A DNA stretch of 21,561 bases from a virus, in IMG/VR virus record IMGVR_UViG_3300042301_004602, positions 1 to 21,561 of that record. One strand, given 5' to 3'. Positions 3,560 to 14,191 of the stretch are shown piece by piece. Positions within the stretch are counted from its first letter, which is position 1. Every line of letters starts with the position of its first letter. Under the pieces are notes generated by a model. It had not been told where the DNA came from. It saw nothing but the letters and a program-made list of their open reading frames with translations, and did no database searches. A program made the translations under genes and the position numbers.

Positions 3560-4371
3560 TGAGCGAAAATACATATAACGCGCCTGCGCCATCAGCAGCC
3601 GTGCCGCAAGGAACAGCTGCACGTCTTATCGAGGTAGCTTTATCTCAAGTGGGTTACGTCGAAGGGCCCAAAGACAATGCCACGAAATACGGGGAGTTCA
3701 CAAAGGCAAACTTCTTGCCTTGGTGCGGTTCTTATGTAAATTGGTGCGGAAATAAAGCTGGAGTAAAGATTCCTAACACCGTTTCAACGGTTGCAGGGTC
3801 AACTGCATTTAAGAAGATGAAGCGCTGGTATGACAACGACGGAGTTAACACTCCACAACCTGGCGACATCGTTTACTTTGACTTCCCAGGAGACGGTGTA
3901 GACCGCATCTCGCACGTAGGTATCGTCGTAAAGGATAACAAGGACGGCACAATGATCTGCCTAGAGGGAAACACCTCAGGCAACGCTAAGGGTGACCAGC
4001 GCAACGGAGGGGAAACCTGTAAGAAGGAGCGCGGCTACCTAAAGAACAACAAGAAGAAACTTCTTGTCGGTGTTGTTGGTTGGGGTCGTCCTGACTACGC
4101 GGGATCTGCAGCTGCTCCAGTTGCAGTTAAAGAAGTAAAGGAAAAGGATACAACAGGCAAGGTTTATCCTGGAGAGACAATCGACCCAGGTGAGTCTGGC
4201 ATTCACGTTAAGACTATTCAAGCGGCGCTTGAAATCAAGCCAGTCGATGGTCAATTCAGCCCGGTCACAAAGAAGGCTGTCATGGCCCACCAAAAAGCTA
4301 AGAAGCTACCTGCAACGGGTATCGTTGATGAAAAAACTTGGAAAAGTATTACCGGATTGCCCGTAAAGTAA
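3559..4371 (+). CDS. Endolysin: CHAP amidase/endopeptidase plus peptidoglycan-binding domain
   Basis: A 270-aa cell-wall hydrolase for lysis. The CHAP domain covers about residues 22-180. The likely catalytic Cys56 is in PWCGSYVNWCG, His119 in RISHVGIV, and the acid/amide in LEGNTSG near 136-138. PGDIVYFDFPGDG precedes the histidine, as is usual for CHAP. A Lys/Ala-rich linker leads to a C-terminal PG_binding_1 domain at about 206-266 (GESGIHVKTIQAAL, DGQFSPVTKKAV, GIVDEKTW). There is no signal peptide, so release should need a holin; small membrane-protein candidates lie at 16558 and 17740. The ATG overlaps the stop of the GIY-YIG gene by one base (TAATG). Whether it is an amidase or an endopeptidase cannot be decided from sequence. 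Confidence 0.93.
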   Translation: MSENTYNAPAPSAAVPQGTAARLIEVALSQVGYVEGPKDNATKYGEFTKANFLPWCGSYVNWCGNKAGVKIPNTVSTVAGSTAFKKMKRWYDNDGVNTPQPGDIVYFDFPGDGVDRISHVGIVVKDNKDGTMICLEGNTSGNAKGDQRNGGETCKKERGYLKNNKKKLLVGVVGWGRPDYAGSAAAPVAVKEVKEKDTTGKVYPGETIDPGESGIHVKTIQAALEIKPVDGQFSPVTKKAVMAHQKAKKLPATGIVDEKTWKSITGLPVK

Positions 4372-4433
4372 ACCTTTTAGGTATATAGTAATACTAGTTT
4401 TTGACGTCCCGGGAGAGAGCGTCTAAAACATAA

Positions 4434-4478
4434 AGAGCCGGACATGTGAGTAATCACGCGTCCGGCTCTGTCTTTTTT
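4434..4478 (+). terminator. Strong intrinsic terminator after the endolysin
   Basis: A perfect 10-bp stem, AGAGCCGGAC (4434-4443) with GTCCGGCTCT (4460-4469), encloses an inner 4-bp stem GTGA/TCAC with a GTAA loop. A run of six T's follows at 4473-4478. It ends the plus-strand block. The A-rich bases on its left could also let it stop the converging minus-strand block. Confidence 0.9.
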
Positions 4479-4528
4479 ACTTCTTTAAATCTTTCCTGTC
4501 ATCACCATAAGCTACTGTATCTCCTTAG

Positions 4529-4744
4529 TTATTCAGCATTGATTATTGCCTTAGTCCCATCAAAAGTCATTACGCCTTCACAGGCAAAGTAAGCAAGTTT
4601 TCCTAAAAATGTTTTACAAGGGACATTGACTTCTATTTCGCCAACTACCCATTCCTGTAAAAGTTTAGTACGATCTTGGTTTGTTTCGGTAATACTCCAA
4701 GGCGCCTCTTGTCTCCTGCTAAAGTTAAAGAAGTAATAACTCAT
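4529..4744 (-). CDS. Hypothetical 71-aa protein, last gene of adhesin cassette A
   Basis: I do not recognise this family. The protein is mixed alpha/beta with an aromatic start (MSYYFFNF) and two cysteines (CKTFLG, ACEG), without a signal peptide or membrane segment. Its ATG overlaps the stop of the companion-protein gene by one base (TAATG read on the minus strand), so it is translationally coupled to the adhesin cassette. The segment GTKAIINAE at its end is followed by the terminator region. Cassettes B and C do not carry a copy, so this gene is special to cassette A. A role in virion assembly or as a tail-fibre accessory is only inferred from position. Confidence 0.6.
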   Translation of the reverse strand: MSYYFFNFSRRQEAPWSITETNQDRTKLLQEWVVGEIEVNVPCKTFLGKLAYFACEGVMTFDGTKAIINAE

Positions 4745-5052
4745 TATACTACTGAGTTGGGGTCTACAGGATAATCAAAAGGTGGTTTCCATTGTAAGTT
4801 ATATTCATCAAGTATCCAGTCATCTGCTGGACACGGCGCAATAAAAGCATCTCTAACAGGGTCGTAAGTAAACCCGATACCAGCGTAGTTAAATCTAATG
4901 TTGTTATTATAAGAAGTTCTTATACAACGTTGCCCTCTAAAATTGCCATACCATTCTTCAGGGCTTAACCCTTCAATAGTCTCAGTCTCGTCAATACCTG
5001 TGATGACCTCGGTAACAATATTATTTTCGTCTAAAAATGCATAGTGTGCCAT
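4744..5052 (-). CDS. Adhesin-companion protein A (MAH-type small protein)
   Basis: A 102-aa protein of a small family with three members in this window (here, 10366 and 13784). Shared marks are a start like MAHYAFLDENNIV, a central TSYNNNIRFNYAGIGFTYDPVRDAFIAP, and a C-terminal WILDE..LQWKPP. Similar short proteins follow glycine-rich tail fibres in aquatic phages, from memory; no biochemical role is established that I know of. It is always directly downstream of an adhesin: here the ATG overlaps the adhesin stop by one base, and the junction ACTTTCTAATGGCACAC is the same as in cassette C. A tail-fibre assembly factor or small virion protein is the most likely role. Copy A is the shortest and lacks the final Trp-Asp-Glu repeat seen in B and C. 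Confidence 0.75.
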   Translation of the reverse strand: MAHYAFLDENNIVTEVITGIDETETIEGLSPEEWYGNFRGQRCIRTSYNNNIRFNYAGIGFTYDPVRDAFIAPCPADDWILDEYNLQWKPPFDYPVDPNSVV

Positions 5053-6410
5053 TAGAAAGTTATAGTTCCTGTTCCCGCTGTAAAGCGATAGACGCGATAA
5101 CCTGCGCGGCTTGGTTGGTTATATGTTAATCCGCTAATTGAAGTAGGTGCTGGGAAACTGTCTGGGTAGGCAATAATTACAATACCTGAACCACCGCTTG
5201 CGCTTGATCCCATACCAACATAACCGCCACCACCGCCGCCTGTGTTTGCTGTTCCAGCAACACTTGAACCGCCGCCGCCACCAACGCCGCCTACACCTGC
5301 TGGACCTTCACCAACAGGGTATTGGAAGCCACCAGCACCTCCACCGCCACCAGCGTAAGGAGTAGATGTGCCACTGATAGAAGTATAAGAACCTGCGCCA
5401 CCGCTACCGCCAGTAGCGCTGTAAGTTGCTGCGCCATTGCCGCCTGCAGCGCTTGCACCACCGCCGCCGCCTTGAGAACCTGGACTTGAAGGAGGACCAT
5501 CGCCACCTTTATTTCCTTGACCTGATGTTCCTGCAGCACCAGCTACACCTACCTGAGCAGAACCACCACCTGACCCACCAGTGTTAGGACCAGTATTAGT
5601 AGTATATCCAAGGCGTCCTTGCCCACCGCCAGTCGATGTTATAGAAGAAAATACAGAGTTAGAACCATTAGTAGTGCTGCCTGCCCCAACAGTTACCGTG
5701 TACGCAACTCCTGTTGATACACCAAGAGTTGAAGCCCGATAACCACCCGCACCGCCGCCGCCGCCACTAAACCCAGGGCCACCGCCTCCGCCTGCAACGA
5801 CAAGGTACTCAACGCTAGATAAAGCAGGAGCAACTGGAGTCACTGAGTTAGACGCAGAGCTTGCTGCTGAGGTTCCATTAGCATTAGTTGCAGTAACGGT
5901 AAATGTATATGCGACTCCATTAGAGCCTGAGACTGTAATTGGGCTTGCACCTGTTCCAGTTTGTCCACCTGATGATGTTGCCGTGAATACGCTAACTGCA
6001 GCTCCGCCGTTTGCACCTGCCGTGTAGGTAACTGTAGATGATGCGTTACCTGCCGTGGCAGACCCGATGGTTGGTGCCTGCGGGACCGTTGTTGCAGTGA
6101 TCGAGTTAGATGCGCTAGACGCACCTGACGTGCCAATCGCTGATGTAGCAGTTACAGTGAATGTATAAGCTGTCGCAGACTGCAACCCTGTTACAGTTAT
6201 AGGTGAGCTTGCGCCTGTCCCCGTATAGCCGCCTGGGCTTGAGGTAACTGTGTAAGAGCTGATAGGTAACTTACTTGTAGGAGCTGTGAATGTTACAGTT
6301 GCTGCGCCATTGTTGTATGCTCTCGAGGTACCTACGTCAGTTGCAGTGCCAATAGTTGGAGCAACTGGTGCGCTTTTAGCGCCTGAACCTTGTGCTCCGA
6401 TGATTGGCAT
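5052..6410 (-). CDS. Glycine-rich tail adhesin A with two FN3-like domains
   Basis: A 452-aa virion adhesin candidate. Residues 1-193 form an N-terminal tip (MPIIGAQGSGAK) and two fibronectin-III-like repeats (APTIG...TVTATSAIGTS...SNSITATTVPQ, then APTIGSAT...SNSVTPV). From about residue 200 the strand motif EYLVVAGGGGG starts a glycine-rich region with many GGGG and GGSGG tracts, ending IVIIAYPD and a C-terminal strand cap TAGTGTITF. Such domains occur in phage receptor-binding tips, where polyglycine helices can pack together; this is family knowledge, not seen here. Compared with copies B and C the N-terminal part is conserved and the C-terminal part differs, as expected if the tip sets host range. 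It lies on the opposite strand from B and C, 14 nt downstream of a serine recombinase, and has its own leaderless-type promoter. Confidence 0.85.
   Translation of the reverse strand: MPIIGAQGSGAKSAPVAPTIGTATDVGTSRAYNNGAATVTFTAPTSKLPISSYTVTSSPGGYTGTGASSPITVTGLQSATAYTFTVTATSAIGTSGASSASNSITATTVPQAPTIGSATAGNASSTVTYTAGANGGAAVSVFTATSSGGQTGTGASPITVSGSNGVAYTFTVTATNANGTSAASSASNSVTPVAPALSSVEYLVVAGGGGGPGFSGGGGGAGGYRASTLGVSTGVAYTVTVGAGSTTNGSNSVFSSITSTGGGQGRLGYTTNTGPNTGGSGGGSAQVGVAGAAGTSGQGNKGGDGPPSSPGSQGGGGGASAAGGNGAATYSATGGSGGAGSYTSISGTSTPYAGGGGGAGGFQYPVGEGPAGVGGVGGGGGSSVAGTANTGGGGGGYVGMGSSASGGSGIVIIAYPDSFPAPTSISGLTYNQPSRAGYRVYRFTAGTGTITF
6379..6398 (-). repeat. 20-bp exact repeat in adhesin A start, inverted relative to adhesin C
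   Basis: Read on the minus strand, GGAGCACAAGGTTCAGGCGC is identical to plus-strand 12450-12469 in adhesin C. It encodes residues 5-11 of the adhesins (GAQGSGA). The two copies form an inverted pair about 6 kb apart. Confidence 0.8.
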
Positions 6411-6416
6411 GTAGTT

Positions 6417-6445
6417 ATTCTATCTTACTTTGGTTCTTCTGATTG
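6417..6445 (-). promoter_or_regulatory. Leaderless-type promoter of adhesin A
   Basis: On the minus strand CAATCA (6440-6445), a 17-bp spacer and TAGAAT (6417-6422) end 6 nt before the adhesin ATG at 6410. The box GATAGAAT and the following bases closely match adhesin B (GATAGAATAAnnACATGCC). No Shine-Dalgarno sequence stands before the ATG. It overlaps the 3' end of the recombinase gene. Confidence 0.6.
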
Positions 6446-7114
6446 TTGATCTAACACATATTTAATACTAGAAGCAGACCACTTTCCGCCGTAGGCGGTA
6501 GGAATGCCTTCAACGTCAAGCATCCGCGCTATTACACGAAGAGAGAGACCTTTTTCTCTTTCTGCAATGATACGACTGCGAATCTCATCGGAGATCAACT
6601 GCTTGGGACCTAGATCTACACCCCATACCTGCCCACTGTCTCGTCTATGTTTATGTACATCCTTTTGGCGCTCTGCGATGATGCCTCGTTCCATCTCTGC
6701 AAGAGCGGACATGATTGTTGTGACGAACCTGCCTTGATACGTTGAGGTGTCAAGGTTGAGATCAAGAAGGACTAGACGCCAGTTATTCTTAGCCGCGCGG
6801 TCTACGATTGACAAGAAGTCGGTGGTAGATCTTGCCAATCGGTCGATACGAGTAACAATCAAAGCCTGGGCAGTTCCGTTATCAAGTCTGGTTAGTGCGT
6901 CACGAAGCACGGGTCTGCCTGCGATTGACTTACCACTGCGACCTTCTTCAAGCAAGACTTCTACGCTTGAGAAGCCTGCAAACTCGGCCGCATTGCGTAA
7001 AGTCTTCTCCTGAGCTTCCATACTCATGCCATCATTAACCTGCATCTGTGTGCTGACTCGGGCATACAAAAGTGCGTGTTCTACCTGCTTTTCAGGCTGT
7101 ACATTCTTAGTCAA
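6425..7114 (-). CDS. Small serine recombinase (resolvase/invertase family)
   Basis: A 229-aa site-specific DNA recombinase. The N-terminal resolvase domain shows LLYARVST at 16-22 (catalytic Ser21, with Arg19), GRSGKSIAGRP at 58-68, TRIDRLARS at 88-96 (active-site arginines) and the long E helix ALAEMERGIIAERQ at 138-150. A C-terminal helix-turn-helix follows (KGLSLRVIARMLDVEGIPT), then a short GGKWSASSIKYVL segment as in larger serine recombinases. At this length it resembles resolvases and invertases more than 450-600-aa integrases. The start is TTG at 7114 with AGAAGG 8 nt upstream; no ATG fits better. It is the gene directly upstream of adhesin A, suggesting a role in tail-fibre cassette rearrangement, but its site is unknown. 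Confidence 0.9.
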   Translation of the reverse strand: MTKNVQPEKQVEHALLYARVSTQMQVNDGMSMEAQEKTLRNAAEFAGFSSVEVLLEEGRSGKSIAGRPVLRDALTRLDNGTAQALIVTRIDRLARSTTDFLSIVDRAAKNNWRLVLLDLNLDTSTYQGRFVTTIMSALAEMERGIIAERQKDVHKHRRDSGQVWGVDLGPKQLISDEIRSRIIAEREKGLSLRVIARMLDVEGIPTAYGGKWSASSIKYVLDQQSEEPK

Positions 7115-7136
7115 AAACAGTACCTTCTATCGCTAA

Positions 7137-7180
7137 TGTACAATATTTCAATACCTACAACTATACAAAGACATTGTACA
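7137..7180. promoter_or_regulatory. TGTACAAT inverted repeat upstream of the recombinase
   Basis: TGTACAAT (7137-7144) and ATTGTACA (7173-7180) are perfect 8-bp arms 28 bp apart. A further TGTACA lies at 7098-7103 inside the recombinase start, and TGTAC at 7197-7201. Centre-to-centre distances are about 39, 38 and 22 bp. The arrangement fits an operator or a recombinase-binding site; function is inferred. Confidence 0.4.
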
Positions 7181-7253
7181 CCCTTAAGGTCAAGGATGTA
7201 CGGATTTTAACAGGGTTTAGGCGGTTTGGCAGGGCTTAAAGAATAAAAAATAG

Positions 7254-7400
7254 CTACTGCTGAAAGTCTGGAGGAACGAGCTCGTCTAGCTTCTCCCACA
7301 TAGCTTTAAGGTCTAGATTGTTTAATTGCTCGCGTTGAGTTTCGGCGTCCTGTATAGTCTGTATATCAAGTCTTTCCATATGTACCCCGTACTTTACCAT
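7254..7400 (-). CDS. Possible 48-aa (or 41-aa) small protein
   Basis: A short minus-strand frame ending ..LDELVPPDFQQ. The ATG at 7400 gives 48 residues (MVKYGVHMERLD...) with a weak AAGAAG about 9 nt upstream; the ATG at 7379 gives 41. The product is charged and helical (QTIQDAETQREQL), with no recognisable domain. It lies about 140 nt upstream of the recombinase on the same strand, in a stretch of roughly 400 bases that otherwise holds only the TGTAC repeats. Amino-acid make-up looks protein-like, but there is no strong ribosome site, so it could be a chance frame. Confidence 0.4.
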   Translation of the reverse strand: MVKYGVHMERLDIQTIQDAETQREQLNNLDLKAMWEKLDELVPPDFQQ

Positions 7401-7476
7401 AGCATAAGACTTCTTAGTAGGACTTCTTGGTGCCTTGGTAAGAAGTAAAATAATTTAAGATTCAACTACCCAAAAG

Positions 7477-7505
7477 CTATCACCGCAGGTTATTTGAGAT
7501 ACTAT
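7477..7505 (+). promoter_or_regulatory. Leaderless-type promoter of the acidic protein gene
   Basis: CTATCA (7477-7482), a 17-bp spacer and TACTAT (7500-7505) end 6 nt before the ATG at 7512. The block TATCACCGCAGG (7478-7489) recurs at 11936-11947 with the same 10-bp distance to the -10 box. There is no Shine-Dalgarno sequence. Confidence 0.6.
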
Positions 7506-7511
7506 TAGACA

Positions 7512-7778
7512 ATGGATTATCCTGAGGACCCAGAGTATGCTGAAGATGATGTTCTACAGCAGTACCTTGATGAAGAGGGTCTAGCCTTAGTACCTGTTGA
7601 ATTCATGCGTGAATTGATGCTTCTTATGGAGGCTCACATAGTTAACCTATGCGGAATAGATAGAGACGAACTCAACGAGATAATGATACGCATGGAGGAG
7701 CTTCTTGGTGAAGAGGGTCTTATGGACCTATCCATGGAGGACATCATCGGCTGGGTAAATACCTTAAAAGACGCCTAG
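7512..7778 (+). CDS. Acidic 88-aa hypothetical protein
   Basis: I do not recognise this family. About a quarter or more of the residues are Asp or Glu, with only a handful of Arg/Lys, so the isoelectric point must be very low. It is predicted mostly helical (EFMRELMLLMEAHI, DELNEIMIRMEELLGEE, SMEDIIGWVNTL) without signal peptide or membrane span. The start is the first ATG after a leaderless-type promoter. It is followed by the promoter of the structured RNA at 7800. Very acidic small phage proteins can mimic DNA or bind basic host proteins, but nothing specific in the sequence shows that here. Confidence 0.7.
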   Translation: MDYPEDPEYAEDDVLQQYLDEEGLALVPVEFMRELMLLMEAHIVNLCGIDRDELNEIMIRMEELLGEEGLMDLSMEDIIGWVNTLKDA

Positions 7779-7787
7779 TCTTCCTGT

Positions 7788-7793
7788 TATAAT
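7788..7793 (+). promoter_or_regulatory. -10 box of the structured RNA
   Basis: A consensus TATAAT hexamer lies 10 nt after the stop of the acidic gene. No clear -35 is visible (TTAAAAG lies near the right distance). It would start a transcript near 7800, at the first base of the structured region. Confidence 0.5.
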
Positions 7794-7799
7794 TTAACT

Positions 7800-8028
7800 A
7801 TCGCCACTGGCCTGGAGCCGCTACTAGTAGCTTGTCACGACGAAAGTGAAGTCTAGCTAATCCCGCTACTGCGAATCGTCCTGGACATGACGTACAACTG
7901 TCATCCACTCCAACTTCAGAGTTGAGTGTCTAGCACTGGCTGGGTAGACATCGAGTGGGTAGTTGATTAGCGGGCTACCTTTAGGGTAGTATACAAAGCG
8001 CTGCCAGTGCTAGACTCGATTCTTTTTT
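7800..8028 (+). ncRNA. Structured ncRNA or regulatory leader of about 230 nt
   Basis: A stretch with no credible ORF, starting just after a TATAAT and ending in a T run. Pairings visible by eye: CCCGCTA (7862-7868) with TAGCGGG (7968-7974); CAACT-TCAG-AGTTG near 7911-7924; CTACC-TTTAG-GGTAG near 7975-7989; and GTCTAGCACTGGC (7928-7940) with GCCAGTGCTAGAC (8003-8015). The 3' strand GCCAGTG can also pair with CACTGGC at 7805-7811, and GCTAGAC with GTCTAGC at 7851-7857. So two mutually exclusive folds of the 3' end exist. It does not match RNase P, tmRNA, SRP RNA or a cobalamin riboswitch as I know them. It may be a free phage RNA or an attenuator for the cupin gene. Confidence 0.55.
7928..8028 (+). 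terminator. Long-stem terminator-like 3' end of the structured RNA
   Basis: A 13-bp perfect stem (7928-7940 with 8003-8015) extends to about 15 bp with a 2-nt bulge (GAGT with ACTC). It is followed after a few bases by TCTTTTTT (8021-8028). The loop is about 60 nt and itself structured. The stem competes with a pairing to the RNA 5' end. Confidence 0.55.
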
Positions 8029-8039
8029 ATTATTTATGA

Positions 8040-8045
8040 TACAGT
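8040..8045 (+). promoter_or_regulatory. -10 box of the cupin gene (leaderless type)
   Basis: GATACAGT places TACAGT (8040-8045) 6 nt before the ATG at 8052. It lies directly after the T run of the upstream RNA, so the cupin operon can be read independently of it. No -35 of the ATCA type is seen. Confidence 0.45.
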
Positions 8046-8051
8046 CCGTAC

Positions 8052-8402
8052 ATGACACCGGAGATCTTTGTTCGCCCTTGGGGCTTCTACGTAATTTTAC
8101 ACACCGAGCAAAAGGTGCAGGTTAAACGAATACACGTTGAAAACGGAAGTCGTCTCAGCAAGCAGTCTCACAAACACCGCGCAGAGCATTGGTACATCAC
8201 ACAAGGCTATGCAGAGGTAGAGTTATTTGACCAGATACTTCATCTTGGCCCGGGAGATTATGTCTCAATTGGAGTTGGAGAAGTTCACCGCGTAAGAGCC
8301 GAAGGTGAAGGCGACCTCGTCTTTATCGAGATTCAAACAGGCGAGTATCTTGGAGAAGATGACATCATTCGATATGAAGATGATTTTGGACGTGTAGAGT
8401 AA
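8052..8402 (+). CDS. Cupin of the type II mannose-6-phosphate isomerase family
   Basis: A 116-aa single cupin. It follows the C-terminal domain of bifunctional GDP-mannose pyrophosphorylase/phosphomannose isomerase closely: RPWGFYVIL, VKRIHVENGSRLSKQSHKHRAEHW (metal-ligand histidines), ITQGYAEVELFD, GDYVSIGVGEVHRV, and the end FIEIQTGEYLGEDDIIRYEDDFGR. Family activity is isomerisation of mannose-6-phosphate and fructose-6-phosphate; the nucleotidyltransferase half is absent. The ATG is preceded by a leaderless-type -10 box. Its stop overlaps the methyltransferase ATG by one base (TAATG), so the two form one unit, directly upstream of adhesin B. A sugar-modification role for virion or host surface is inferred. 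It could instead be a sugar-binding regulator. Confidence 0.82.
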   Translation: MTPEIFVRPWGFYVILHTEQKVQVKRIHVENGSRLSKQSHKHRAEHWYITQGYAEVELFDQILHLGPGDYVSIGVGEVHRVRAEGEGDLVFIEIQTGEYLGEDDIIRYEDDFGRVE

Positions 8403-8977
8403 TGGAGCAAGAGCTTCCTACGTGGTTCAACCACGTTAAACCAAACTTTGAAAGCTACCTTACGTTTCCTAATGAAAACATCATACCTGTCCCGTTAAAC
8501 GTGCTGCAGATCGGCGCGTACAAGGGTGACACAACGCAGTGGCTTTTAGACAATAAAAACATCAACAGGATAGTAGACGTTGACACCTGGGAAGGCTCAA
8601 TCGAGCACGAAGGAACGTTTGACTTTAACCAGGTTGAGAGAGTCTACGACGAAAGATTCACCGCAGTTGAGAAGGTTGAGAAGCGCAAGGGTACAAGCGA
8701 TAGATACTTTGCAACGCGCCCTGAAGGTGAAACATTCAACGTCATCTATATAGACGGAGATCACACCGCATTGCAAACGGCGATTGACTCCTTAAACTCG
8801 TGGAGGATCTTAGAGGTTGGCGGGATCATGATATTTGACGATTACGACTGGCACATGTACCAAGGAACACCGTTGCATCCTAAGGACGGTATCGACTGCG
8901 TCCTGAGGTTATTTAGAGGGCGCTACAACCTTATCGTTACGAACTATCAGGTCTGGATTCGTAAGACGGCGGAGTAG
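8402..8977 (+). CDS. Class I SAM-dependent methyltransferase (family 24 type)
   Basis: A 191-aa protein with a Rossmann-type methyltransferase fold. Motif I is NVLQIGAYKGDTTQWLL at about 33-49, the acidic loop is VDVDTWEGS at about 58-66, and the motif FNVIYIDGDHTALQTAIDS near 111-130 with GGIMIFDDYDW near 139-150 is typical of Methyltransf_24 proteins. The DGDH and DDY residues commonly bind a metal in this family. The substrate is unknown; members next to sugar genes often methylate glycans. It is coupled to the cupin by a TAATG overlap, and adhesin B starts 40 nt downstream. Methylation of a sugar made with the cupin is plausible but unproven. Confidence 0.8.
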   Translation: MEQELPTWFNHVKPNFESYLTFPNENIIPVPLNVLQIGAYKGDTTQWLLDNKNINRIVDVDTWEGSIEHEGTFDFNQVERVYDERFTAVEKVEKRKGTSDRYFATRPEGETFNVIYIDGDHTALQTAIDSLNSWRILEVGGIMIFDDYDWHMYQGTPLHPKDGIDCVLRLFRGRYNLIVTNYQVWIRKTAE

Positions 8978-8981
8978 TACA

Positions 8982-9010
8982 CTATCAACTATAGACAGGC
9001 ATGATAGAAT
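8982..9010 (+). promoter_or_regulatory. Leaderless-type promoter of adhesin B
   Basis: CTATCA (8982-8987), a 17-bp spacer and TAGAAT (9005-9010) end 6 nt before the ATG at 9017. It shares GATAGAATAA with the adhesin A promoter. No ribosome-binding sequence is present. Confidence 0.6.
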
Positions 9011-9016
9011 AAACAC

Positions 9017-10363
9017 ATGCCAATTCTAGGAGCCAGCGCATCAGGCGCAAAAGCAAGTCCTGTTGCACCGACTATCGGGACGGCAACTAACGTAGGAACG
9101 TCAAGAGCGTATAACAATGGAGCAGCGACGGTAACCTTCACGGCTCCTAACTCGAAGTTACCTATTAGCTCTTACACGGTGACTAGCTCACCTGGATCAT
9201 TTACCGCTTCAGGTGCGTCAAGTCCTTTAACAGTGACAGGATTACAGTCCGCAACTGCATACACATTTACAGTTACTGCAACGAGTGCGATTGGGACTTC
9301 TGCAGCATCTAGCGCATCTAATTCTATTACTGCCACAACTGTTCCACAGGCACCAACGATTGGAACAGCGACTGGCGGAAACGCGTCAGCGACAGTTACC
9401 TATACGGGTAACAACACGGGTGGAGCAGCTATATCTACTTATACGGTAACTGCATCACCAGGCGGCGCAACAGGGGCAGGAACGTCAGGAACAAACACAG
9501 TCTCAGGATTGAGTAACGGCACAGGCTATACATTTACAGTTACAGCAACTAACGCTAATGGAACCTCAACTGCAAGCTCTGCTTCTAACTCAGTAACCCC
9601 TGTTGTACCTATCCCTGTTGTTACCGGTGGGTCGCTTACATCAGACGCAACTTATTATTATCGCACCTTCACTGGTAATGGAACTTTAGGCGTTTCAAAT
9701 GGAACAGTTTCAACAACTATTCTTCTTGTGGCAGGTGGTGCTTCTGGTGGTACTAGACAAGGCGGCGGCGGGGGAGCTGGCGGAGTTGTTTACGGAGACC
9801 AATCTTTTTCTTCTAATGCATCTATTGTTATTGGCGCGGGCGGTACTGGTGCTGATGGAGGTGATAACGGTACTGCTGGCAATGCTTCTAGTTGTACTGG
9901 AGTAACAACTGCTGTTGGCGGCGGTAGAGGTGGCGGCAACAGTAGCGGTGGCACTGGTGGTTCAGGTGGTGGCGGTAACGGTAGTCAGGAAAACTTTGGA
10001 GGCGGAGGTGTACAAGGAAATGGCGGCGGTAGAGGTAAAGACGGTTCAGGCGGTGGCGGTGGTGGCATTGGTGGAGGCGGCGCTGCTGGAACTGCTAGTG
10101 TGGGTGGCAATGGTGGTAGTGGTGGAACATATTTAGGACTTACTCTTGCTGGTGGTGGTGGTGGTGGTCATGCTGCTTCATTTACTAATAGTACAGGCGG
10201 TTCAGGCGGTGGCGGAGGTGGCGGAGGATTTGGAAATAGTGGAACTAATGCTACTGGCTACGGTAGCGGTGGCGGTGGTGCAGGGTACTCAACAACCATC
10301 TCAGGCAGCGGTTTTCAAGGAATTTGTGTAGTTAGATACACAAGATCACAGGTAGGAGGATAA
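9017..10363 (+). CDS. Glycine-rich tail adhesin B with two FN3-like domains
   Basis: A 448-aa adhesin paralogous to the genes at 5052-6410 and 12438-13784. Residues 1-195 repeat the same architecture (MPILGASASGAK, then two FN3-like repeats ending SNSVTPV). By eye about 13 of the first 116 residues differ from adhesin A. After VTGGSLTSDATYYYRTFTGNGTLGVS the glycine-rich domain begins at about ILLVAGGASGG and runs to the end with long GGGG tracts. The C-terminus (GFQGICVVRYTRSQVGG) differs from the SITF-type ends of A and C, so B carries another tip class. It is probably a receptor-binding fibre protein. Glycine codons are mainly GGC and GGT, with some GGA. The companion gene follows after an AGGAGG ribosome site. 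Confidence 0.85.
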   Translation: MPILGASASGAKASPVAPTIGTATNVGTSRAYNNGAATVTFTAPNSKLPISSYTVTSSPGSFTASGASSPLTVTGLQSATAYTFTVTATSAIGTSAASSASNSITATTVPQAPTIGTATGGNASATVTYTGNNTGGAAISTYTVTASPGGATGAGTSGTNTVSGLSNGTGYTFTVTATNANGTSTASSASNSVTPVVPIPVVTGGSLTSDATYYYRTFTGNGTLGVSNGTVSTTILLVAGGASGGTRQGGGGGAGGVVYGDQSFSSNASIVIGAGGTGADGGDNGTAGNASSCTGVTTAVGGGRGGGNSSGGTGGSGGGGNGSQENFGGGGVQGNGGGRGKDGSGGGGGGIGGGGAAGTASVGGNGGSGGTYLGLTLAGGGGGGHAASFTNSTGGSGGGGGGGGFGNSGTNATGYGSGGGGAGYSTTISGSGFQGICVVRYTRSQVGG

Positions 10364-10365
10364 TT

Positions 10366-10716
10366 ATGGCGCATTGGGCTGAGATAGACGAAAACAACAT
10401 TGTTTTAAGAGTAACTGTTGGAGACAACAATGAACCAGATGAAGGCTATCAATGGTTGATTGATAATTTAGGCGGGACATGGTTACAGACTTCATACAAT
10501 GCAACTATTCGCAAGAACTATGCAGGAATTGGAATGACTTACGATGAAGCACGAGACGCGTTTATTGCGCCTAAGCCTTTTGAGTCATGGATATTAGATG
10601 AAACAACTTGCACCTGGAAGGCTCCAGTAGACATGCCTGTTACAGAAGGCAAGTACTACACATGGAACGAAGATACTCTTTCATGGGACGAGCATACTCC
10701 GGTAACTCCAGAATAA
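10366..10716 (+). CDS. Adhesin-companion protein B (MAH-type small protein)
   Basis: A 116-aa member of the small family also found at 4744-5052 and 13784-14149. It has MAHWAEIDENNIVLRV, a central TSYNATIRKNYAGIGMTYDEARDAFIAP, and WILDETTCTWKAP, then a C-terminal Trp-rich repeat YTWNEDTLSWDEH. Function is not established; position after each adhesin suggests an assembly or virion role. The start ATG has AGGAGG 6 nt upstream, and the adhesin stop lies only 2 nt before the ATG, so expression is coupled. The transcription unit ends at the terminator at 10731. Confidence 0.8.
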   Translation: MAHWAEIDENNIVLRVTVGDNNEPDEGYQWLIDNLGGTWLQTSYNATIRKNYAGIGMTYDEARDAFIAPKPFESWILDETTCTWKAPVDMPVTEGKYYTWNEDTLSWDEHTPVTPE

Positions 10717-10730
10717 ACTTAAACAAAATA

Positions 10731-10766
10731 AAAGACCGCGCCCGTTTGGACGCGGTCTTTATTTTT
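10731..10766. terminator. Bidirectional terminator between convergent genes
   Basis: AAAGACCGCG (10731-10740) pairs with CGCGGTCTTT (10751-10760), with an inner CC/GG pair around a GTTT loop. T's follow on the plus side (ATTTTT, to 10766) and the mirror-image A-rich flank gives U's on the minus transcript. It serves the companion gene and the secreted protein gene at 10773. Confidence 0.92.
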
Positions 10767-10772
10767 GTAACT

Positions 10773-11879
10773 TTACGGTAGGCGAGTACCGGAGATAGTT
10801 GTTTCCTGACCTGTCCCAAGATCTCGTAGAACAACCTTAATTTGATACTCTTCTGTAGGTGATAGCCAGTCAATATGAACTATCTTTCCAACACCGTCTA
10901 GACCAATTGCAGTCGTGGAGCCGTTCTTATCTACAATCATAAGAGTTGCCCATGTCTTATTAGGATCAAAGTTTGGAACGTCCGCAACAGAGATACTTGC
11001 AGAGCGGTGACCGTTTGTCCCTTCTGCCTGTGCAACAACTGTAGGGGCAGCTATCGTTGCCTTATCAACAACTTCATTTCGTGCAGGCTCGGGAGCTACT
11101 ATAGGAGCTGCCGGTGTGGCAACAACTGTATTAGAGGTAACCGTCTCAGTCCCTGTTACAACGTCACGGACAGTGGTTTGAACTGTGATGTTGGCGTCCT
11201 GTGGGACTGCCTTAATCACTACCGTGTCGCCGTTATTAGATACACCGACGCTCGAGTGCGAGCGTCCGTCCGTGATTACCTGGACGGAGACAGTCTTGGT
11301 TGTATCTGTTACAACAGGAGCGGTAACGGTAACGGTTACAGAGTTGTCACTCTCAACCTTAACACCAGTTACAGTAGAAGCATTAGCATCTGCTACTGGA
11401 GTACCTGTAGGTTCAGGATTTGGATTAGCAACAACCTCGCCCGTTGTGTTAACGTCTGGAGTTTCTACAGTAGTAGAAGACGTTTGAACAGAGACGATAT
11501 CTCCTTGGTTGATTGCCTCAAGACGAATAACTCCGTCCTCGTCGATGTGCTTAACTCCACCGGACTCTGTAAGCTTGACAATAACGCCTGTTGCTCGAGT
11601 TACTCGCACAAGAGACGTTGTCTCCTTCCAGGTGATAATCTTATCAACTACGCCGCCTTGAAGAATTGCGTATCTATCTCCTACAACCGGAGTATCTACG
11701 ATCTCGTCTATTGAAACCTTAAAGTACGAGTTAGCGTTGATCTGTGTTCTGTCTTCCTCGTCGAGACGCGTTCGCGTGTCTAAGAAGCTATAGTCAATAC
11801 TCCACCAGGCGCTTGCGCCTTGGGCGGGTAAAAGTGAAATCGCGAGCGCAAGTGGTAGCGCTTTTTTAATAGGTAACAT
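10773..11879 (-). CDS. Secreted beta-rich protein of unknown function
   Basis: A 368-aa protein with a clear signal peptide: KK, a hydrophobic core ALPLALAISLLP and the cleavage site GASA-W near residue 24. The mature N-terminal domain (about 25-135) is rich in beta strands and charged residues (DRYAILQGGVVDKIITWKETTSLVRVTRATG). A Thr/Pro-rich linker (about 140-170) is followed by Ig/FN3-like strands (KVESDNSVTVTVTAPVV, KTVSVQVITDG, KTWATLMIVDKNG, EEYQIKVVLRDLGTG). There is no anchor or catalytic motif that I recognise. AAAGGA stands 6 nt before the ATG. It lies on the opposite strand between adhesin cassettes B and C. Export to the host surface or medium is inferred; the purpose is unknown. 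Confidence 0.72.
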   Translation of the reverse strand: MLPIKKALPLALAISLLPAQGASAWWSIDYSFLDTRTRLDEEDRTQINANSYFKVSIDEIVDTPVVGDRYAILQGGVVDKIITWKETTSLVRVTRATGVIVKLTESGGVKHIDEDGVIRLEAINQGDIVSVQTSSTTVETPDVNTTGEVVANPNPEPTGTPVADANASTVTGVKVESDNSVTVTVTAPVVTDTTKTVSVQVITDGRSHSSVGVSNNGDTVVIKAVPQDANITVQTTVRDVVTGTETVTSNTVVATPAAPIVAPEPARNEVVDKATIAAPTVVAQAEGTNGHRSASISVADVPNFDPNKTWATLMIVDKNGSTTAIGLDGVGKIVHIDWLSPTEEYQIKVVLRDLGTGQETTISGTRLP

Positions 11880-11934
11880 AAGGTGTCCTTTCGTCCTTTG
11901 TCATTGAAGATATAATAACAGGAAAAGTGCAAAA

Positions 11935-11963
11935 TTATCACCGCAGGATAAATAAGATAGAAT
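11935..11963 (+). promoter_or_regulatory. Leaderless-type promoter of the 45-aa/thioredoxin unit
   Basis: TTATCA (11935-11940), a 17-bp spacer and TAGAAT (11958-11963) end 5 nt before the ATG at 11969. The block TATCACCGCAGG (11936-11947) is the same as at 7478-7489, and the two regions align over about 40 bp with one gap. It is divergent from the secreted protein gene. Confidence 0.62.
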
Positions 11964-11968
11964 TAGGC

Positions 11969-12106
11969 ATGGAATTATCAAGGGAAGACATCGCTAAAGA
12001 GGTAGAAGACGCTATTAAACCTTTGATTGAGAAGCCTGGGTTTATGAATGCCCTTGGAACATTAACCATGGCGTTGGAGATAATTAGAGGGCACGATAAG
12101 AAATGA
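11969..12106 (+). CDS. 45-aa hypothetical protein coupled to thioredoxin
   Basis: A short helical protein (MELSREDIAKEVEDAIKPL..., ending IIRGHDKK). I do not recognise a family. The evidence that it is real is its position: a leaderless-type promoter ends 5 nt before the ATG, and its TGA overlaps the thioredoxin ATG in an ATGA junction (12103-12106). No competing start or ribosome site is present. Its role could be minor or purely to couple translation; the segment KPGFMNALGTLTMALEII is hydrophobic on one face but not a membrane span. Confidence 0.65.
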   Translation: MELSREDIAKEVEDAIKPLIEKPGFMNALGTLTMALEIIRGHDKK

Positions 12107-12423
12107 TAGAGGCAACAAACAAAAACTTTAAAGAGCTACTAGAAAACGACCTGCCCGTACTTGTAGACTTTTGGGCGGAGTGGTGCGGACCGTGTCGAAT
12201 GCTGGCGCCTATACTAGAAGAAGTAAGCTCAGATTATAAGTACGTTTTTATCACCGCAAAGTTGAATAGCGACGAGAATCCTGAGATAGCATTCAAACAC
12301 GAGGTTAGATCGATACCCACAATGATACTTTTCAAGAGTGGAATTGAGGTAGCAAGAATGACGGGTGCTAAGCCTAAGCCAGCAATTGTTGCCTGGTTGC
12401 AAGATCACGTTGAGCTAGGTTAG
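12103..12423 (+). CDS. trxA: Thioredoxin
   Basis: A 106-aa thioredoxin of normal length. The redox site WCGPC is at 27-31 within VDFWAEWCGPCRMLAPIL, and the cis-proline is at 72 (RSIPTMILF), followed by GIEVARMTGA. It should reduce disulfides in the cytoplasm. Within this phage the likely client is the ribonucleotide reductase at 14510, whose C-terminal cysteine pair needs such a reductant; this link is inferred from family knowledge. It is translated by an ATGA overlap from the 45-aa gene. The adhesin C promoter begins right after its stop. Confidence 0.95.
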   Translation: MIEATNKNFKELLENDLPVLVDFWAEWCGPCRMLAPILEEVSSDYKYVFITAKLNSDENPEIAFKHEVRSIPTMILFKSGIEVARMTGAKPKPAIVAWLQDHVELG

Positions 12424-12425
12424 GA

Positions 12426-12431
12426 TACAAT
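12426..12431 (+). promoter_or_regulatory. -10 box of adhesin C (leaderless type)
   Basis: GGATACAAT places TACAAT 6 nt before the ATG at 12438, matching the arrangement before adhesins A and B. AGATCA lies 18 bp upstream, inside the end of the thioredoxin gene. The AGGA in the spacer is too close to the ATG to act as a normal ribosome site. Confidence 0.55.
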
Positions 12432-12437
12432 AGGAAC

Positions 12438-13784
12438 ATGCCAATTCTAGGAGCACAAGGTTCAGGCGCAAAAGCAAGTCCGGTAGCGCCCACGATAGGT
12501 ACTGCAACAAATGTAGGCACGAGTCGTGCGTATAACAATGGTGCAGCTACCGTAACATTTACCGCGCCTAGCTCAAAGTTACCTATTAGCTCTTATACAG
12601 TCACCTCTAGCCCAGGCGGGTTTACTGGCACAGGGTCTAGCTCACCTATAACTGTCGCAGGATTACAGTCTGCGACCGCATACACATTTACAGTAACTGC
12701 AACATCAGCAGCTGGAACAAGTTCTGCGTCTAGTGCATCTAACTCAATTACCGCAACTACAGTCCCTGCCGCACCTACGATCGGATCAGCAACAGCCGGA
12801 AATGGCAGCGCTACAGTTGCTTACACAGCGGGCGCGACGGGCGGGGCGGCTGTAAGTACATTCACAGCAACATCATCTGGCGCACACACCGGAACAGGTG
12901 CAAGCCCGATTACAGTTTCAGGCTTAACAAATGGAACTGCATATACATTTACCGTTACTGCAACTAACGCAAATGGAACGTCAACAGCAAGTAGCGCATC
13001 TAACTCAGTAACTCCTATTAACCCTATACCTTCAACCGTTACTTATCTTGTAGTAGCAGGCGGCGGTAGTGGATCTGAGGTTGCTGGCGGTGGCGGTGGT
13101 GGTGGAGGCTATCAATCATCAACTCTTGGAGTGTCCGCTGGTACATACAGCGTTACTGTTGGCGGAGGTAGCGCATATCTTGGCAATGGTAATAATTCAG
13201 CATTTCATTCAGTAACCTCTACTGGCGGCGGCCGAGGCGGAAACCAATTTATGGTGGGTTCACCTCCTACCAGTGGTGGATCTGGTGGTGGCGGTGCTGG
13301 TAATACAAGCAACTCTAGTTTTTATACTGGTGGTGCGGGAATTGCTGGACAAGGAAATAACGGCGGCGGTCTAGGTGGTAATCCTTCTGGTGCTGGTGGT
13401 GGTGGCGGTAAGGGCGCTGTTGGTGGTAATAATAGTTCAACTAACGGCGGAAATGGTGGATCAGGTGCAACCTTTAGCATCAACGGTGGCACATACGCAG
13501 GCGGCGGCGGTGGTGGTGGAGCATACACAGGGCAAGCAAATGGTTCAGGCGGTGCTGGCGGAGGCGGAACTGCGGGTGCTGGAGCAGCAAACACAGGTGG
13601 CGGCGGTGGTGGCGTATTAGGCCAACCAGGGCTTAATAACCAAACAGGCGGTTCAGGTATTGTAATTGTTGCTTATTCAAGTAGTTTTTCTAATGCTTCT
13701 TCAACAACAGGTTCACCGTCATTTGTTAATAATGGAACAAATAAAATTTACACTTGGACTGGAAGCGGGAGCATAACTTTCTAA
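12438..13784 (+). CDS. Glycine-rich tail adhesin C with two FN3-like domains
   Basis: A 448-aa third paralogue. The N-terminal part (MPILGAQGSGAK and two FN3-like repeats, residues 1-194) matches A and B at protein level while many codons differ. A strand VTYLVVAGGGSG at about 198-209 opens a glycine-rich region that runs to about residue 410, then IVIVAYSSSF and the C-terminal cap YTWTGSGSITF. Both the YLVVAGGG entry and the SITF end are like adhesin A, so A and C share a tip class and B differs. It is the likely receptor-binding or fibre-tip protein. Its stop overlaps the companion ATG (TAATG). Glycine codons are mostly GGC/GGT. Confidence 0.85.
   Translation: MPILGAQGSGAKASPVAPTIGTATNVGTSRAYNNGAATVTFTAPSSKLPISSYTVTSSPGGFTGTGSSSPITVAGLQSATAYTFTVTATSAAGTSSASSASNSITATTVPAAPTIGSATAGNGSATVAYTAGATGGAAVSTFTATSSGAHTGTGASPITVSGLTNGTAYTFTVTATNANGTSTASSASNSVTPINPIPSTVTYLVVAGGGSGSEVAGGGGGGGGYQSSTLGVSAGTYSVTVGGGSAYLGNGNNSAFHSVTSTGGGRGGNQFMVGSPPTSGGSGGGGAGNTSNSSFYTGGAGIAGQGNNGGGLGGNPSGAGGGGGKGAVGGNNSSTNGGNGGSGATFSINGGTYAGGGGGGGAYTGQANGSGGAGGGGTAGAGAANTGGGGGGVLGQPGLNNQTGGSGIVIVAYSSSFSNASSTTGSPSFVNNGTNKIYTWTGSGSITF
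12450..12469 (+). repeat. 20-bp exact repeat in adhesin C start, inverted relative to adhesin A
   Basis: GGAGCACAAGGTTCAGGCGC, the partner of minus-strand 6379-6398. The 14-mer ATGCCAATTCTAGG that begins at 12438 also occurs at 9017 and 14153. Confidence 0.8.
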
Positions 13785-14149
13785 TGGCACACTTTGCAAA
13801 ACTAGATGACAGTAACATTGTTCTTGAAGTTAATGTTCTTAACAATGAAGTTTTAGATAACTTACCATTTCCTCAATCAGAACCAATAGGCATTGAATTC
13901 TTTACTGAATGGTCAGGTGGATATACTCATTGGCTGCAAACTTCCTACAATGGAAGTTTTCGCAAGAACTATGCTGGTGCGGGTTTTCTTTATGACCCGA
14001 TCCGTGATGCTTTTATTCCACCTCAGTTATATCCATCTTGGATATTAAACGAAGATACCTGCCAATGGGAAGCACCAGTGCCATACCCAGCGGATGATAA
14101 GCTATATGCGTGGGACGAGGCAACAACTAGTTGGGTAGAGGTTCAGTAA
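13784..14149 (+). CDS. Adhesin-companion protein C (MAH-type small protein)
   Basis: A 121-aa member of the companion family (MAHFAKLDDSNIVLEV, TSYNGSFRKNYAGAGFLYDPIRDAFIPP, WILNEDTCQWEAPVPYP, YAWDEATTSWVE). The frame is open further upstream to 13754, but the ATG at 13784 is chosen because it aligns with the two paralogues and makes the same TAATG overlap as in cassette A. Copy C has extra residues (GIEFFTEWSGGYTHW) before the TSYN core. Function is unknown; a role with the adhesin is inferred from three independent occurrences of the pair. Confidence 0.8.
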   Translation: MAHFAKLDDSNIVLEVNVLNNEVLDNLPFPQSEPIGIEFFTEWSGGYTHWLQTSYNGSFRKNYAGAGFLYDPIRDAFIPPQLYPSWILNEDTCQWEAPVPYPADDKLYAWDEATTSWVEVQ

Positions 14150-14152
14150 CAT

Positions 14153-14191
14153 ATGCCAATTCTAGGTTCACAGGCGTCACGCGGGCGTTAA
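14153..14191 (+). pseudogene. Remnant of a fourth adhesin start (12 codons)
   Basis: ATGCCAATTCTAGG here is identical to the first 14 bases of adhesins B and C. It then reads MPILGSQASRGR and stops at TAA. It lies 3 nt after companion C, where a further cassette would begin. No -10 box stands 6 nt before it. It is best read as the stub of a deleted cassette, though a conserved short peptide or a recombination site cannot be excluded. Confidence 0.6.

Follow-up and report, generated by a model that had tools for sequence, protein, structure and literature searches.

Whole-cassette replacement at a short 5′ hinge probably diversifies the putative tail adhesins of a large freshwater actinophage

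Introduction

Receptor-binding genes of T-even phages are reportedly exchanged between phages by recombination at short conserved motifs, as Tetart et al. are said to have described in 1998. Motifs of gp38, a glycine-rich adhesin, are mentioned in PMC12529663 (partial text), which also names the invertible tail-fibre segments of Mu Gin, P1 Cin and e14 Pin. In aquatic environments, host-recognition genes vary between otherwise similar phages in metaviromic islands (PMC3909814, partial text), and a variable host-recognition island is described for the Planktophila phages E7 and F5 (PMC10202952, partial text). The metagenome-assembled phage DSL-LC01 (OQ999401) is predicted to be lysogenic (PMC10611076, partial text). 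Here we analyse a 21,561-bp virus record from IMG/VR (IMGVR_UViG_3300042301_004602, hereafter the window), which carries three adhesin genes, A, B and C, and a small serine recombinase gene (REC); a literature search found no paper on this locus among open-licence papers. The window probably belongs to a large freshwater actinophage with a multi-slot arsenal of probable tail adhesins, which vary between phages by replacement of whole cassettes at a short 5′ hinge and not by DNA inversion.

Results

Adhesin cassettes and their relatives

The earlier note had described three adhesin and companion pairs, A being inverted relative to B and C, and the open reading frames (ORFs) and PHROG matches agree with this. 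Adhesin A (5052..6410, minus strand, beginning MPIIG) is accompanied by companion A (4744..5052, minus), adhesin B (9017..10363, plus, beginning MPILG) by companion B (10366..10716, plus) and adhesin C (12438..13784, plus, beginning MPILG) by companion C (13784..14149, plus). All three adhesins have FN3 and Gly_rich_2 matches, and all three companions match phrog_7759, a family without assigned function. Judged by their domains, PHROG matches and gene context, A, B and C are probable tail adhesins with a putative role in host binding. A cassette would consist of an adhesin gene, usually with a companion behind it and often with its own compact promoter, and cassettes appear to occupy fixed slots: slot A behind REC on the minus strand, slot B behind a methyltransferase-like gene and slot C behind thioredoxin on the plus strand, with others in relatives.

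Relatives were the best 80 of 586 from one search and the best 80 of 231 from another, and all counts apply to that sample; their contigs were annotated with profiles built from the window genes. Thioredoxin, HNH, endolysin-like and ribonucleotide reductase are names that we assigned by eye; in NCBIfam, nothing matched the HNH protein, and the matches of the endolysin-like protein were all under the cut-off. The cassettes of L238, L085 and L086, which have odd slot labels, were left out of the slot counts. The window is identical to two other IMG/VR contigs, over 14,661 and 7,896 bp, which come from samples 3300042569 and 3300044846, and its primase/helicase is 78% identical to that of the Actinomycetia phage DSL-LC01 (129 kb) and about 52% identical to those of cultured Microbacterium phages such as Zooman.

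Cassette exchange at slot A

Alignment of slot A between contigs shows that the putative adhesin is swapped while the endolysin-like gene and REC flanks stay, the homology stopping at a hinge of promoter and first codons (ATGCCNATTCTNGG). Modular exchange calls for constant flanks around an exchanged putative receptor-binding gene, and for exchange borders at a short conserved sequence. Grouped on their last 150 residues, the 42 closed slot-A proteins form 15 clusters. Endolysin-like genes at least 88% identical (over at least 500 nucleotides, nt) are shared by 130 contig pairs, and 110 of these differ in C-terminal cluster, their flanks being constant. As to the borders, the 105 different-cluster pairs (27 contigs) show an identity of 0.86–0.92 up to position −17, 0.80 over the promoter and 0.38 at the last three bases before the ATG, followed by 0.85 over the first 15 coding nt and 0.34–0.58 beyond, and the homology mostly ends within about seven codons. 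A drop, taken as the first 20-nt segment with less than 60% identity, is present in 103 pairs; in 85 of these it begins 0–19 nt from the ATG, a border at a short conserved sequence that is partly forced by the choice of genes and pairs. The identity stays at 0.85–0.98 in 27 same-cluster pairs. On these alignments, it is whole genes that are replaced between near-identical flanks. Cassette exchange, which the earlier note had offered as an alternative to inversion, is well supported between phages by these slot-A data and by the slot-C scar described below.

A promoter-like gap stands before each adhesin: GATAGAATAACTAC between the REC stop and adhesin A (14 nt, 6411..6424, minus), GATAGAATAAACAC before adhesin B (9003..9016, plus) and GATACAATAGGAAC between the thioredoxin stop and adhesin C (14 nt, 12424..12437, plus). 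The similarity of promoters reported before was indeed found, GATA(G/C)AATA preceding all three adhesin starts, while the coding part of our logo of adhesin starts is forced by the search pattern. The distance from the thioredoxin stop to the slot-C adhesin is 14 nt in the window, L236, L237 and L239, equal to the gap from REC to A; we therefore rejected the 14-nt spacing as a sign of coupling between REC and the adhesin. It reflects a compact promoter-like element (GATAGAATA) placed between stop codon and ATG. Elsewhere in the window, a direct repeat of 49 nt (76%; 7473–7521 and 11931–11979) ends at or near an ATG and contains TATCACCGCAGG and a −10-like box; it is perhaps a shared promoter type, possibly for leaderless genes.

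A scar at slot C

At slot C, the comparison with relatives shows the cassette standing before a 12-codon remnant of another adhesin type. This scar ORF, MPILGSQASRGR followed by a stop codon (14153..14191, plus), lies behind companion C. Its start matches the slot-C adhesin start of relatives (MPILGTQSSRGGGTP in L239, MPILGSQASRGGGTP in L238), and its last bases together with the DNA behind them match the stop of the L239 slot-C adhesin and the DNA downstream of that gene (90.8% from window position 14187 on). In the scar, the beginning of the L238/L239 slot-C adhesin type is thus fused to its stop region. The simplest order of events would be that cassette C arrived before a resident adhesin, and that an internal deletion, at a short match rich in G+C, then removed the body of that adhesin. 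Among 118 contigs scanned for further scar-like short ORFs, the scar occurs only in the window and in the identical contig L002, the other matches lying inside adhesin genes on the opposite strand or not starting with MP.

Changes in cassette number are also seen. L045 has an extra cassette between the terminator of a probable non-coding RNA (ncRNA, see below) and the cupin promoter, the 3′ end of its companion being 96.1% identical over 152 bp to that of companion C, and L121 and L237 have tandem cassettes. In L238 (oriented 10840–10950), a degenerate adhesin start lacking its ATG follows thioredoxin.

Inverted identities between A, B and C

The inverted DNA identities on which the idea of inversion had partly rested do exist: a 20-bp exact pair (6379–6398 and 12450–12469), and a 23-bp near-match (6250–6272 and 9155–9177) composed of two exact 11-mers flanking one mismatch. 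The 20-bp pair is not singular, since the longest exact run between A and C is 29 bp, within the second FN3 repeat (5884–5912 and 12939–12967). Over their first 590 nt, A, B and C are 75–78% identical to each other, for which the longest runs expected are about 17–20 bp by our own arithmetic, made without a tool control; the 29-bp run is somewhat longer. These inverted identities are ordinary coding paralogy, and inversion at them was rejected on that ground, the longest run being inside an FN3 repeat.

The earlier note had itself remarked that recent exchange was not evident among the three, and we likewise see no sign of recent conversion. Apart from the identical contigs, the sequence closest to A is the slot-A adhesin of L160/L161 (90.5%), and B and C are no nearer to A than they are to the adhesins of other phages. 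A, B and C might on this account be old fixed paralogues that diverge without exchange, and the two identical contigs do keep the arrangement, but the differing C-termini between near-identical flanks at slot A, and the turnover evident in the slot-C scar, make such a history barely credible.

The serine recombinase and its orientation

REC (6425..7114, minus, 229 aa) ends 14 nt before the inverted A, as had been noted, and is a small serine recombinase of the resolvase/invertase superfamily, to which the Gin/Hin/Cin-type enzymes belong. It matches PF00239 (Resolvase, 117.6 bits) and part of PF07508 in Pfam. Its best PHROG is phrog_95 (integrase, 156.7 bits), followed by phrog_125 (DNA invertase, 137.8 bits); its best NCBIfam match is CcrB at 85 bits, far below the cut-off of 900, and its PDB matches are TP901-1 integrase and a DNA invertase. 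In a comparison with bacterial prophage integrases, the best 80 of 103 confirmed stretches were all at most 41% identical, and all but three were enterobacterial by title; we thus rejected REC as a known bacterial prophage integrase, the scan relying on short exact peptides, by which an absence is weak evidence.

The orientation of REC was tallied in 95 REC contigs, obtained by de-duplication by containment and removal of 6 loci sharing a contig (L184, L236, L237, L240, L261 and L263), a set that keeps near-identical contigs from different samples. In each of the 74 contigs with both REC and the helicase/HNH marker, REC runs in the opposite direction to the marker. It also runs against the nearest right-hand marker in 40 of the 41 contigs that have one, and only the distant phage L072 departs from this; the 21 contigs without a left marker and the 54 without a right marker are uninformative. 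Adhesins directly behind the methyltransferase-like gene lie on the marker strand in 7 of 7 contigs, and those behind thioredoxin in 3 of 3. No inverted configuration of the REC locus was found among the contigs compared, and REC is single in 10 of 10 records.

A single dyad upstream of REC

The earlier note had located no dimeric site; we find a 26-bp dyad, GTACATCCTTGACCTTAAGGGTGTAC (7176..7201, minus), 62 bp upstream of the REC start, which is a possible REC site or operator. It did not occur in 100 shuffles of the window, and no second copy was found in the window or at the adhesins. A degenerate dyad pattern run across viral contigs matched 24 contigs, one copy each, all of which bear REC in our set. 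When up to 5 mismatches are allowed, all 36 contigs with REC scores of at least 340 bits have the dyad in the 300 nt upstream of REC, as do 23 of 53 at 300–340 bits (5 contigs were too short), compared with none of 1,800 shuffled upstream stretches. Elsewhere in the group of at least 340 bits, it is absent from 341,549 bases. Of the 53 contigs in the 300–340-bit group, 30 lack it in the 300 nt next to REC; this group has 10 more matches in other places (each strand counted by itself), some of them 1.0–1.4 kb upstream of REC. Dyad and REC are each single in four long contigs (130,553, 136,434, 74,850 and 129,506 bp), a reversed control pattern also giving one match in each of two of them. We also observed a GIY-YIG-like gene directly upstream of a diverged REC in L045, L048, L160, L161, L176 and L260, with no dyad within 300 nt.

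These data bear on a Gin/Cin/Pin-type switch, in which REC would invert the DNA between sites near A and sites near B or C and so change the adhesin made. REC does match the invertase family phrog_125, cassette A is inverted relative to B and C, and the dyad has the size of an invertase site. Such a system would be expected to have two inverted copies of a site of about 26 bp and to occur in nature in both orientations, but one dyad is found in the window, one per contig in 24 of 24 and one in each of the four contigs of 75–136 kb, none lies at an adhesin, although a site of another sequence may be present, all 74 informative contigs run one way, at a contig level that would not show rare inversion within one population, and A, B and C are just 75–78% alike. 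We therefore consider a switch by inversion, as put forward in the earlier note, very improbable. The dyad may be a site of REC. A single site in each genome would fit inversion less well than it fits resolution, integration or self-regulation. A Tn3-type resolvase with a res site would be expected to have its binding sites just upstream of its own gene, as one set per genome; the candidate sites seen here are the single dyad, 62 bp upstream of REC, and further TGTAC half-sites.

The fibre island on the other side of REC

A conserved 20-bp element, ACTTCTTAGTAGGACTTCTT (7409..7428, plus), marks the far border of a fibre island found upstream of REC in relatives. REC and this element occur together in 32 contigs, and in 20 of these they are separated by an island longer than 600 bp; the window is one of the 12 without, and has a 41-aa ORF (7254..7379, minus) at this place. 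Each of the 20 islands has a 118–120-aa ORF, and the one scanned has matches to phrog_1084 and phrog_3304 (L-shaped tail fibre assembly). For 13 of these islands a long collagen-like ORF is listed as well, and the two scanned match tail-fibre families. The C-terminal tip of the collagen-like fibre varies, and at least four kinds of fibre tip occur in the islands; L005 (oriented 9245–12543) provides an example. The 20-bp element was disfavoured as a recombination site, as each contig has it a single time and always in the same orientation, close to where the 118-aa island gene starts or, in the window, 103 bp before ORF88.

REC might then be integrase-like, inserting or replacing fibre or adhesin cassettes beside its own gene. 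The variable loci on both sides of REC would fit this, as would its best PHROG and NCBIfam matches given above and the lysogeny predicted for DSL-LC01. The homology, however, breaks near 6384–6416, 7241 and 7409 and nowhere at the dyad; slots without REC vary too, dyad-less REC alleles (for example those of L039, L160, L176 and L183) adjoin slot-A genes of several types, and no hybrid dyads were found at the island ends. Cassette insertion by REC is hence unlikely.

Domains and models of the adhesins and companions

The two-FN3 N-terminus that the three adhesins were said to share is borne out in part: an fn3 match is present in A, B and C, and two FN3 domains are seen in the model of C, but the match passes as a single stretch in A and as two in B and C. 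Their glycine-rich C-termini differ, as the earlier note had it, but they are not unrelated, since all three match Gly_rich_2 in Pfam and are hence homologous, B aligning least well. The predicted model of adhesin C has a mean predicted local distance difference test (pLDDT) score of 84.7 and two FN3 domains. In a fold search, its best row had a Z of 13.7 with a root-mean-square deviation of 6.6 over 170 residues, and single-domain rows had Z values of about 12–13 at 1.4–2.0; searches with the whole adhesin were filled by FN3 matches, so that the fold of the Gly-rich end was barely probed. The Gly-rich end of adhesin C had no PDB sequence match at E 0.1, which is the sole test bearing on a relation to gp38 and gave no sign of one. 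A tblastn search of adhesin C against phages gave no match, the low-complexity filter being perhaps responsible.

The model of companion C is confident (pLDDT 94.8). It had no PDB fold match at E ≤ 0.001 and no PDB sequence match at E 1; 14 viral models matched at E ≤ 0.001, and the named ones are all uncharacterised. Behind companion A, a 71-aa ORF (4529..4744, minus) closes the cassette, and profile matches to it follow companions in L084, L094, L096 and L099; some cassettes may accordingly contain three genes.

Neighbouring elements

Between the endolysin-like gene and cassette A, an inverted repeat with T runs (4424..4479; 26-nt arms, 81% complementary) is a probable bidirectional terminator, and L048 and L051 are about 90–91% identical to the window over an overlapping stretch (4366–4477). 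The structured ncRNA mentioned above is probably encoded at positions 7796–8032 (plus), between ORF88 and the cupin gene, and is preceded by a TATAAT box and followed by a T-run. For its three helices, pairing is kept in 330 of 330 cells across 15 distinct sequences, and double-sided changes number 33, where shuffles give 8.0; the helices were drawn from the RNAalifold consensus of the same alignment that was used for counting. On its own, the window sequence folds only moderately better than shuffled versions (z −1.69), and no Rfam match was found at E up to 5.

Discussion

Taken together, the observations are probably best explained by the replacement of whole adhesin cassettes between phages at the slots described here. 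The exchange would proceed by general or illegitimate phage recombination near the short shared starts, and exchanged cassettes would be kept by selection, the adhesin setting which host strains are bound. REC may be a conserved gene that lies next to the cassettes and has a site of its own upstream, its most likely task being resolution, integration or self-regulation. It is not shown to drive the exchange, because exchange is also seen in slots without an adjoining recombinase and beside dyad-less REC alleles.

Several points weigh against this explanation. The pairs used for the hinge were chosen for at least 85% upstream identity and the gene was required to have an MPI-like start, so that the hinge is partly built in. 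There is no trace of recent exchange among A, B and C themselves, given that the nearest sequence to A is the L160/L161 adhesin and that B and C are no closer to it than they are to the adhesins of other phages. L238, which has the most diverged recombinase (281 bits) and no tally marker, carries it on the same strand as its thioredoxin gene, and it is thus placed differently (oriented 14525–15148, beyond the degenerate adhesin start). An MPI-like gene stands directly behind REC in 25 of 26 contigs with REC scores of at least 450 bits, by which a role for REC is conceivable, compared with only 17 of 60 contigs among distant REC relatives (300–400 bits). Finally, in 20 of 32 contigs a variable fibre locus lies on either side of REC, for which reason too we keep a role for REC in view.

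One such role can be pictured, in which REC, acting at its single dyad, would always cross over the genomes of co-infecting phages at this one point, joining two genomes instead of inverting one. Since the dyad lies between the adhesin slot and the collagen-like fibre slot, each crossover would reassort two host-binding modules; we regard this as very improbable. The lone recombinase with a single invertase-sized dyad is the remaining oddity and can be tested, and the conserved site upstream of REC offers a concrete target for the role of lone small serine recombinases in phages.

DSL-LC01 is the nearest named relative found, with a REC 65% identical to that of the window in addition to the similar primase/helicase, and its REC is also opposite to the primase/helicase. 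Unlike in the window, however, this REC lies near the primase/helicase without an annotated adhesin adjoining, and DSL-LC01 has no match to the dyad pattern, just a diverged GTACA...TGTAC dyad. In Zooman (192,730 bp), the corresponding place holds minor-tail genes that converge on the primase/helicase, and the genome gave no REC match. The companion family is shared by phages E7 and F5, and in E7 glycine-rich proteins are encoded upstream of the companion, but neither phage has a REC match; the companion family and REC are thus separable. The Gin, Cin and Pin systems likewise have a small serine recombinase beside tail-adhesin genes, and differ from the present locus, in which no paired inverted sites and no second orientation were found. 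The attractive claim of an invertase-driven host-range switch is accordingly set aside as unsupported.

By analogy, the exchange proposed for the present phages is of a known kind, that of T-even adhesins and of metaviromic islands. As in the T-even phages, putative receptor-binding genes would be swapped at short conserved motifs and the adhesins are glycine-rich; here the conserved part consists of the promoter and first codons, several slots are spread across the genome, and the N-termini are of FN3 type. Compared with metaviromic islands and the E7/F5 island, what is described for the present phages is a set of defined slots, a hinge and a scar, which indicate where and how precisely freshwater actinophages swap putative host-binding genes and which can be traced in natural populations.

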